Below are positions 28,198 to 29,938 of a stretch of DNA of 44,244 nucleotides, in pieces; within the stretch, counting starts at the first letter, position 1, and the number at the start of each line of letters is the position of its first letter. The notes beneath the pieces are model-generated. The model did not search any database. It worked only from the letters and a program-made list of their open reading frames with translations, and had not been told where the DNA came from. The translations under genes and the position numbers were made by a program. Source of the DNA: an uncultured Candidatus Saccharibacteria bacterium (GTDB lineage Bacteria > Patescibacteriota > Saccharimonadia > Saccharimonadales > Saccharimonadaceae); contig CAMYXA010000006.1 of the NCBI GenBank assembly GCA_947302975.1, forward strand, positions 1-44,244, written 5' to 3'.

Positions 28198-28869
28198 TTA
28201 TTCCTCCTTAGGTCCATACTGTTCATAGTAAGCATTGATGGCTGCGAGCTGTTCGTCGGGCATCCTATGCGTTTTCCTCAGGTATTCCACTGTGTCCGGC
28301 ATCGAAACGATCGCTGCAGTAGGAAAACCATACGTTTCCGATACTTCTTTTAAGGCAGTCTTTTTGCCACCCTGGCCATACTCATGACGGTCCAAAGATA
28401 CCATCAATCCGACGATTTTCACATCGGCCTGCGCACGTACAATCGGCACTGTTTCTTCCATAGATTTGCCGGAAGTCGTTACATCTTCGATCATGATTAC
28501 GCGGTCTCCATCTTTCAACTTGGAGCCGAGCAAGATTCCCGAATCTCCATGATCCTTTATTTCCTTACGATTTGAACAATAGCGGACGCTATGCATGTCG
28601 TATTCGAAACTGAGGATCATAGCCGTAGCCACTGCGAGCGGAATGCCCTTATAGGCAGGGCCAAATAATACATCGAATTCATCCCCATATTTCTCGTGGA
28701 TTGCCGAGGCATAAAAATGTGCCAAATTGCACAGATTTGAGCCGGTGTTGAAATCTCCCAGGTTCACAAAAAATGGTGACTTCCTTCCTGATTTTAAAGT
28801 GAAATCTCCAAATTTTAGCGCCCCAGTTTCACACAAAAATTCTACAAACTTCTCCTGGAACTCCTTCAT
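28198..28869 (-). CDS. pyrE: Orotate phosphoribosyltransferase
   Basis: 223 aa. It makes OMP from orotate and PRPP. The PRPP-binding signature VIMIEDVTTSGKS (about residues 123-135) and the LKSGRKSPFFVNLG orotate loop identify it. AAAGGAGGTAAGTAA precedes the ATG, and the ATG overlaps the TGA of a 21-codon leader ORF. The promoter is TGTTATAAT at 28939-28947, with a terminator-like hairpin directly after the start site. Ribosome site, leader and base usage differ from the leaderless core genes, so pyrEF may have been acquired. The pair would let the cell salvage orotate to UMP. Confidence 0.95.
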   Translation of the reverse strand: MKEFQEKFVEFLCETGALKFGDFTLKSGRKSPFFVNLGDFNTGSNLCNLAHFYASAIHEKYGDEFDVLFGPAYKGIPLAVATAMILSFEYDMHSVRYCSNRKEIKDHGDSGILLGSKLKDGDRVIMIEDVTTSGKSMEETVPIVRAQADVKIVGLMVSLDRHEYGQGGKKTALKEVSETYGFPTAAIVSMPDTVEYLRKTHRMPDEQLAAINAYYEQYGPKEE

Positions 28870-28931
28870 TTACTTACCTCCTTTTCGTAGCGTAGAATTG
28901 TAAAGTTACAAAAAGGCTCCCATGAGCCCAT
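28866..28931 (-). CDS. Putative leaderless leader peptide of pyrE
   Basis: A 21-codon ORF plus TGA. Its ATG at 28931-28929 lies 7 nt after TATAAT (28944-28939), the spacing of leaderless genes in this window. It begins MGSWEPFCNF and ends EVSK; its TGA overlaps the pyrE ATG as ATGA. Codons 2-7 form the hairpin and U-run of a terminator. A ribosome that starts on the 5' end would block the hairpin and, by reaching the stop, couple to pyrE. Translation is inferred from geometry only; it could also be chance. Confidence 0.5.
   Translation of the reverse strand: MGSWEPFCNFTILRYEKEVSK
28910..28930 (-). terminator. Terminator-like hairpin in the pyrE leader (candidate attenuator)
   Basis: GGCTC/GAGCC stem with a 4-nt loop followed by TTTTT, only a few bases from the predicted pyrE transcription start. 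It is also the first terminator reached from the upstream MBL gene. Confidence 0.65.
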
Positions 28932-28938
28932 CTACGTA

Positions 28939-28947
28939 ATTATAACA
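28939..28947 (-). promoter_or_regulatory. Extended -10 promoter of pyrE-pyrF
   Basis: Minus-strand TGTTATAAT, 7 nt before the leader-peptide ATG and about 70 nt before pyrE. Confidence 0.7.
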
Positions 28948-29008
28948 TAATTTTATAAATCGTCAAAATGCGATTAGCTGTGAGGTCTTGGGAGCTTATC
29001 TTGTGAGT

Positions 29009-29737
29009 CTAGATTTCGAATACATCACCATCAACAGGGGCCACGAGGTTAGAAATATCCTTACGGATTACCATTCTTGACTCGTCGTACATGTGAGTTG
29101 TGATTATTTTCTTGTTTGGATATTCGGTGCAGAATCTATAAATGTCGTCCAGACCCATATGTAGAGCATTTCCAGCTTGAGGACATGAGGCGTCTAAGAT
29201 TACCCAATCGGAGCTTTGGACGATTTTCACAACGCCATCACACATGGTGCTGTCGCCAGAAAAGCCAATCTTTTTGCCGTCTTTTTCGATAATGAATCCG
29301 CTGGCTTTGATGCCACCATGTTCGACTTTGATTGGTTCAACTTGGAGTCCGTCTACTAAAAATACATTGTCGTTCTGATACTCAATTAGCTGCACATTTT
29401 GTGGCATCCAATTTGTTGCCGTATTTTCCGGATCCCATAGATACTTGGCGATATCATAAACGGCCTTGATGCCACCTTCTGGCAGATATATGGTGAGCTT
29501 TTGACCGTTAGCGGCATTTTTGCTCGCCGCGTACATCATGAATGGCAGGTCAGTGAAATGGTCCGAATGTAAATGCGTGATTAAGATCGTATCGATTTCG
29601 TCGATGTTGCAGTTCAATCTAAAGAGCTGTTTGAAGGTCCCCGCACCACAATCGACCAAAATTTTGTCATCAATAAGAGTGGCTGCGCTTGCATATTTAG
29701 TAAAAATAGCCCCGCTTCCGATAATTTGTAATTTCAT
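29009..29737 (-). CDS. MBL-fold metal-dependent hydrolase (RNase Z-like subgroup)
   Basis: 242 aa. The metallo-beta-lactamase signature is THLHSDH (His55, His57, Asp59, His60); further ligands are in KVEHGG, GFSGDST and ITTHMYDESR. The layout is that of RNase Z/ElaC and related phosphodiesterases, but the RNase Z exosite arm is not evident, so a small-molecule esterase is also possible. Start set by TGCTATAAT at 29745-29753, 7 nt upstream (leaderless). No dedicated terminator is seen before the pyrE promoter. Confidence 0.88.
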   Translation of the reverse strand: MKLQIIGSGAIFTKYASAATLIDDKILVDCGAGTFKQLFRLNCNIDEIDTILITHLHSDHFTDLPFMMYAASKNAANGQKLTIYLPEGGIKAVYDIAKYLWDPENTATNWMPQNVQLIEYQNDNVFLVDGLQVEPIKVEHGGIKASGFIIEKDGKKIGFSGDSTMCDGVVKIVQSSDWVILDASCPQAGNALHMGLDDIYRFCTEYPNKKIITTHMYDESRMVIRKDISNLVAPVDGDVFEI

Positions 29738-29786: not shown

Positions 29787-29815
29787 TTGCATAATTCCTT
29801 ATCTTATGTTATAAT
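29787..29815 (+). promoter_or_regulatory. Promoter of the membrane pyrophosphatase gene
   Basis: TTGCAT, a 17-nt spacer and TATAAT (with TGT before it) form a full -35/-10 promoter; the predicted start is near 29822. Confidence 0.75.
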
Positions 29816-29819
29816 GCGC

Positions 29820-29906
29820 TTAATACGTATTCGGGAGATATGTATTAAAACAATTGTCGTGGGCCTTGCCCCACATTTTTTACTAGTTGCGCCCTCAATT
29901 AGTAAA
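29820..29906 (+). promoter_or_regulatory. Structured leader of the pyrophosphatase gene
   Basis: Three hairpins in a row: an 11-bp stem at 29820-29830/29838-29848 around TCGGGAG; a GC-rich GTGGG/CCCAC stem at 29859-29874 followed by ATTTTTT, terminator-like; and a 10-bp stem at 29879-29888/29897-29906. The leader is about 115 nt. I do not recognise a known riboswitch class. Confidence 0.6.
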
Positions 29907-29938
29907 GCACATTTACAATTTAGAAAGGAGAGTGCCTT

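Follow-up and report, generated by a model that had tools for sequence, protein, structure and literature searches.

A putative start-proximal transcription attenuator, working without a leader peptide, in front of pyrE-pyrF in a Saccharibacteria genome

The pyrE-pyrF operon on the minus strand of the window (the whole 44,244-nt stretch of DNA analysed here, from an uncultured Candidatus Saccharibacteria bacterium) is preceded by a short hairpin and U-run which, judging from the sequence, may form a start-proximal transcription attenuator that works without a leader peptide; we give this reading about an even chance. Transcription would start at approximately 28932/28931, and the first ~19 nt of the RNA would fold into a stem-loop with a G-run at its start and five U's behind it. 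The hairpin would form while the U-run is being made, a share of the RNA polymerases would release at about +24, and the remaining polymerases would read on into the SD-led pyrE gene, giving the pyrEF mRNA. A 21-codon open reading frame at the 5′ end would be incidental. Termination at the hairpin in the cell is predicted from the sequence, and termination at +24 is close to the shortest workable length. The features of the region are listed in Table 1.

Table 1. Positions of the predicted regulatory elements and genes of the pyrE-pyrF region (window coordinates; (-), minus strand).
Feature	Position	Strand	Remarks
-35 element, TTGACG	28966-28961	(-)	5/6 matches to consensus
-10 element, TATAAT, TG-extended, TGTTATAAT	28944-28939	(-)	
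Predicted transcription start, G28932 or A28931	28931-28932	(-)	inferred from the -10 spacing of 7 and the leaderless peak of the genome at 6-7 nt
21-codon ORF at leaderless position, MGSWEPFCNFTILRYEKEVSK	28931-28866	(-)	probably incidental
Start-proximal stem-loop GGGCTC-ATGG-GAGCCT, including the early GGG	28929-28914	(-)	type recurs in relatives
U-run T5 (TTTTTG context)	28914-28910	(-)	terminator-like element ends at about +23 to +25
SD of pyrE, strong, AAAAGGAGG	28885-28877	(-)	
pyrE, orotate phosphoribosyltransferase, 223 aa	28869-28198	(-)	TIGR00336, E = 7.7e-47, over cut-off
pyrF, orotidine-5′-phosphate decarboxylase, 259 aa	28194-27415	(-)	PF00215 over cut-off; NF001273, E = 9.8e-33
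Upstream co-directional metallo-hydrolase gene	29737-29009	(-)	

The genome containing the window consists of 673 kb in 18 contigs. Within the genus, a pyrE search at an E-value of 0.001 matched 13 of 174 genomes (approximately 7%). Twelve of these matches, the window's genome included, are real relatives, and the remaining one (L013) matches only in part and weakly. The 13 leaders analysed are the 12 from the genus, with the window's own as L001, and a further one, in front of a close relative, from a different genus of the family. None of the thirteen pyrE genomes has a DHO dehydrogenase that passes the cut-off, therefore the pyrE-pyrF operon (orotate to UMP) is likely an orotate-salvage operon. 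The nearest relatives of PyrE outside the genus are found in Lachnospiraceae (60–64% identity); the sequence comparison suggests a horizontal gain of pyrE from Firmicutes. Inheritance from a Lachnospiraceae donor was also considered and set aside, as terminators of this kind are scarce in the pyrE upstream regions of this family (a score of at least 15 in 3 of 56).

The pyrE promoter has the form TTGACG-N16-TATAAT, with a spacer of 16 and 11 of 12 matches. Seven nucleotides (TACGTAG) separate the -10 element from the ATG at 28931. The stem core of the hairpin pairs GGCTC (28928–28924) with GAGCC (28919–28915) around an ATGG loop. The promoter, the GGCTC/GAGCC hairpin and the T5 run had been described in an earlier note on this DNA, and these sequence facts are confirmed. 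The pyrE leader thus shows a promoter and then a terminator-like hairpin within ~45 nt, as a start-proximal attenuator should. The 27-nt 5′ piece of the leader folds with -9.1 kcal/mol (z = -2.25), and the longer piece that runs from the start into pyrE folds, taken as a whole, in no unusual way (z = -0.2). The latter value, no better than shuffles, would agree with chance, i.e. an unremarkable promoter whose short 5′ UTR contains by accident a small hairpin and a brief reading frame. The micro-ORF, taken alone, is also at chance level, and the genomes searched hold no close relative of the window's exact leader that would allow a base-by-base comparison. However, the hairpin of the window's leader alone outscores 99.7% of dinucleotide shuffles in terminator score (p = 0.003), and terminators are enriched across the pyrE leaders (below), so that chance is a rather unlikely explanation.

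Two other pairings were considered in the leader. The earlier note had proposed an alternative fold between CGTAGA and TCTACG, which is rejected because CGTAGA lies largely ahead of the predicted start at G28932/A28931, outside the predicted RNA. An anti-SD switch, in which CCUUUUUG would pair with the SD (CGAAAAGG), is possible on paper in the window's leader, but the fold does not favour it and it is not seen in L003 or L011.

In nearly all pyrE leaders the promoter is directly followed by one or more of three features, a G-run, a stem-loop and a U-run, e.g. GGGCATC/GATGCCC-TTTT in L014, GGGTTA/TAACCC-TTTTTT in L005 and AAGCAT/ATGCTT-TTTT in L002. The summed terminator score of the 13 leaders is 158 vs 65 ± 18 in dinucleotide shuffles, and strong terminator matches number 4 against 0.37 expected. 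The proposal that hairpin and U-run act as an attenuator is thus probable, since the architecture recurs before pyrE in relatives. Counting against it, roughly half of the pyrE leaders lack a canonical terminator, and U-runs are common in other SD-led leaders too. In L003, L004 and L008 the U-run is folded into the stem of the 5′ hairpin; these hairpins are not terminators. The hairpin is weak or absent in L007, L009 and L012, and in L006 part of the L005 stem is broken without compensation.

As a separate observation, many SD-led leaders of these genomes have a GYACAT(T)- or TCTACAC-like string 10–25 nt ahead of the SD, among them the pyrE leaders L003, L004, L007, L008 and L014 and the other leaders L107, L122 and L114.

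The chief rival to the attenuator is a 5′-terminal stem-loop that shields the pyrEF mRNA from 5′-end-dependent decay, with the U-run merely an unstructured part of the leader. Structure at the 5′ end is the more general property: 12 of the 13 pyrE leaders have z ≤ 0 (mean approximately -1.1 vs shuffles), and the low folding energies include those of L003, L004 and L008, the hairpins of which are no terminators. A U-run directly behind the stem, as in L001, L002, L005 and L014, is however superfluous for protection, and such a 5′ hairpin is missing from the majority of SD-led leaders of these genomes. Protection of the mRNA is considered possible, though unlikely.

A further explanation takes the hairpin as the terminator of the upstream metallo-hydrolase gene, which the pyrE promoter merely happens to precede. 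This gene is co-directional, and no other terminator-like site is found between its end and pyrE on that strand. But a terminator at this position would equally halt polymerases coming from the pyrE promoter, which lies 14–30 nt upstream of the hairpin, and the genes neighbouring pyrE differ among relatives. In L014 the upstream gene has a separate terminator before the pyrE promoter and the leader hairpin is still present, so that, in this leader at least, termination of the upstream gene does not by itself account for the hairpin. We regard this explanation as highly improbable.

The pyrE leaders were compared with 37 other SD-led leaders with a promoter, taken from four genomes. A terminator score of at least 14 is reached by 6 of 13 pyrE leaders vs 2 of 37 others (Fisher p = 0.002). 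GGG within +1 to +12 is present in 10/13 pyrE leaders vs 2/37 others (p = 1.6e-6), in 14/18 when the pyrC leaders are included (again vs 2/37, p = 7e-8), and within +16, with one leader per close cluster, in 10/13 vs 4/37 (p = 2e-5); this G-run test was framed after viewing the data. In all these comparisons the pyr promoters were picked by eye, and the leaders are partly related. T5 at +7 to +38 is found in 13/18 pyrE and pyrC leaders vs 8/37 others (p = 0.0008). A general 5′-hairpin rule for all SD-led genes was not upheld. A general U-run rule was upheld in part, with 8/15 leaders vs 3.7 expected in one set and 8/37 in a later one.

The early GGG of the pyr leaders sits 8–18 nt past the -10 element (starts predicted from sequence), and in 8 of the 10 G-runs of pyrE leaders the next base downstream is a pyrimidine. 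The latter is consistent with a sensing of UTP or CTP at the G-run/U-run. Within the attenuator reading, read-through might be set by nucleotide supply, through the polymerase at the early G-run/U-run and not through a protein, which we put forward tentatively as an unlikely possibility. It is doubtful that the pyrE and pyrC leaders are protein-free sensors in the full sense, in which the G-run/U-run of the first ~25 nt would let the polymerase either release at +24 or read through, depending on pyrimidine nucleotide supply, with neither a leader peptide nor PyrR involved. If low UTP merely slowed the polymerase in the U-run, the effect would go in the wrong direction. The pyrC leaders of five genomes (L134–L138) have GTGGG(G) in common, just past the predicted start.

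Start-proximal terminators are also found outside pyrE. An unbiased scan of 161 intergenic promoter-like sites (31 stretches, four genomes) showed 8 such terminators vs 1.4 expected. Matches in gene leaders are those of pyrE, dihydroorotase (pyrC), SAICAR synthetase (purC), nusA and one further gene, which encodes a 399-aa protein; the names pyrC, purC and nusA were read from the sequence, without a profile search. The nusA leaders of the genus (L144–L173, with L155 from the window's own genome, G000:C10) carry a start-proximal terminator-like hairpin in 23 of 24 cases, where 2.2 are expected. The hairpin begins about 10 nt past the predicted start, is of the ACCGACC..GGCCGGT type and is followed by T4-6. 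RNAalifold yielded no consensus structure, as MAFFT misaligned the loops, and each sequence was scored separately instead. The hairpin varies in sequence; the nusA leaders display a conserved ATAC at the 5′ end but no start codon there, and the one leader scanned against Rfam gave no match. By analogy with the proposal made for S. agalactiae, the nusA hairpin probably serves NusA autoregulation.

Several further elements were noted beside these. In G379, purC is directly upstream of pyrE (L129:13315-14266 and L014), and the two genes have a separate promoter each, each with a start-proximal hairpin. The second start-proximal terminator in the window's genome, ATGCGCC/GGCGCAT with T5 (L110:16077-16169), precedes the 399-aa protein, which has no Pfam match over cut-off; TCTAGAACA is present in the loop of this hairpin and again just before the SD. 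In the window itself, positions 29810–29938 of the plus strand form the long leader of a 710-aa membrane protein, by appearance a putative proton-pumping pyrophosphatase. This leader shows a AATACGTAT/ATATGTATT hairpin at its 5′ end, ahead of a terminator-like GTGGG/CCCAC with ATTTTTT at 29859–29881.

The earlier note had assigned the control of pyrE to a leader peptide: a ribosome would load directly at the bare 5′ AUG, translate the 21-codon ORF and block termination according to pyrimidine supply. The sequence features behind this proposal hold. The ATG is found 7 nt past the -10 element, exactly at leaderless spacing, 21 codons are open, and the stop TGA (28868–28866) overlaps the pyrE ATG (28869–28867). 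The spacing of 6–7 nt is a genuine genome-wide signal, with 93 occurrences of TATAAT-N6-ATG in the whole genome vs 3 in reversed controls; in a 244-kb sample, spacing 6 has 31 cases, spacing 7 has 22 and other spacings about 4 each. Leaderless starts are thus common in the window's genome, and a spacing of 7 is credible. A smaller peak in the TATAAT-ATG distances of this genome (G000) is also seen at spacing 9.

However, of the 53 TATAAT-N6/7-ATG sites in the 244 kb only 6 open an ORF of fewer than 60 codons, and about 8 ATGs are expected there by chance, judging from the other spacings, therefore leaderless micro-ORFs form no recognisable class. The 21-codon ORF needs nothing beyond chance to explain it. 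Among the 13 pyrE leaders, an ATG-started ORF that reaches the pyrE start is found in L001 only. Two others have an ATG at spacing 6–7, which in L008 opens 13 codons and in L009 is followed by TAG after one codon; the remaining leaders have no such ORF, or a TTG out of frame. A comparable ORF is thus present in none of the 12 relatives. The alignment of pyrE upstream regions, which the earlier note had called for, gave a divided result, the ORF being lost in relatives and the hairpin kept in part. The nusA leaders are without an ORF as well, and pyrE has its own strong SD and therefore needs no coupling to an upstream ORF.

The geometry of the leader also argues against control by a ribosome at the 5′ end. 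RNA polymerase hides ~14 nt of RNA, and a ribosome placed at +2 covers ~15 nt downstream. With the ATG at +1/+2 and the end of the terminator near +24, only ~10 nt of RNA has emerged from the polymerase at +24, which makes control by a ribosome unlikely; release would come before any ribosome could load, and no ribosome could trail the polymerase ahead of the terminator. The leader-peptide explanation is considered very unlikely. The attenuator part of the earlier proposal is plausible from the sequence when taken more broadly, as a start-proximal attenuator that needs no peptide.

If termination occurs as predicted, the pyrE element would be among the shortest attenuators. Genomes of ~0.7 Mb without PyrR could then still tune their pyrimidine-salvage genes, and start-proximal terminators (nusA, pyrE, pyrC, purC) may be in wider use in a lineage where many genes are leaderless.

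A literature search found no paper on Saccharibacteria start sites or on pyrE leaders of this kind, and comparison is made with attenuators of other bacteria. The PyrR-dependent attenuators share with the present case pyr genes under transcription attenuation, control through PyrR is common among the pyr operons of Gram-positive bacteria, and the window's PyrE resembles Lachnospiraceae proteins. However, none of the 10 pyrE genomes searched with the PyrR profile NF003549 gave a match above the cut-off (completeness of the window's genome, 91%), an Rfam scan of the leader region (28600–29100) up to an E-value of 10 showed nothing, PyrR elements included, and the space ahead of the terminator is too short for an antiterminator. 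Attenuation of the PyrR type is largely excluded by the absence of PyrR, and we consider protein-dependent control of this kind extremely improbable.

In E. coli pyrBI and pyrE, UTP-sensitive pausing acts together with an ORF that is translated up to or over the terminator, the ribosome following behind RNA polymerase. The window's leader resembles these in its pyrimidine gene, intrinsic terminator and U-run, but leaders of its type have no conserved ORF and no room for a ribosome. The pyrG leader, in turn, carries a G-run at +1 to +3. In B. subtilis this attenuator works by CTP-sensitive reiterative addition of G, as reported in PMC4448216 with reference to Meng, Turnbough and Switzer 2004. 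In both cases a pyrimidine-nucleotide gene is preceded by an early G-run with a terminator behind it, and no protein is required; the G-run of the pyrE leaders, however, begins at approximately +4 to +12 and not at +1, so classical pyrG slippage at initiation fits poorly and is not established here. The rimP-nusA-infB leader of S. agalactiae likewise has an intrinsic terminator a few tens of bases past the start, without a reported peptide, and the nusA leaders of the present genus carry an element of this type; but NusA feedback is proposed there and the gene here is pyrE. Termination in that leader is reported at +31 (PMC4448216), therefore a decision so early in transcription is workable.
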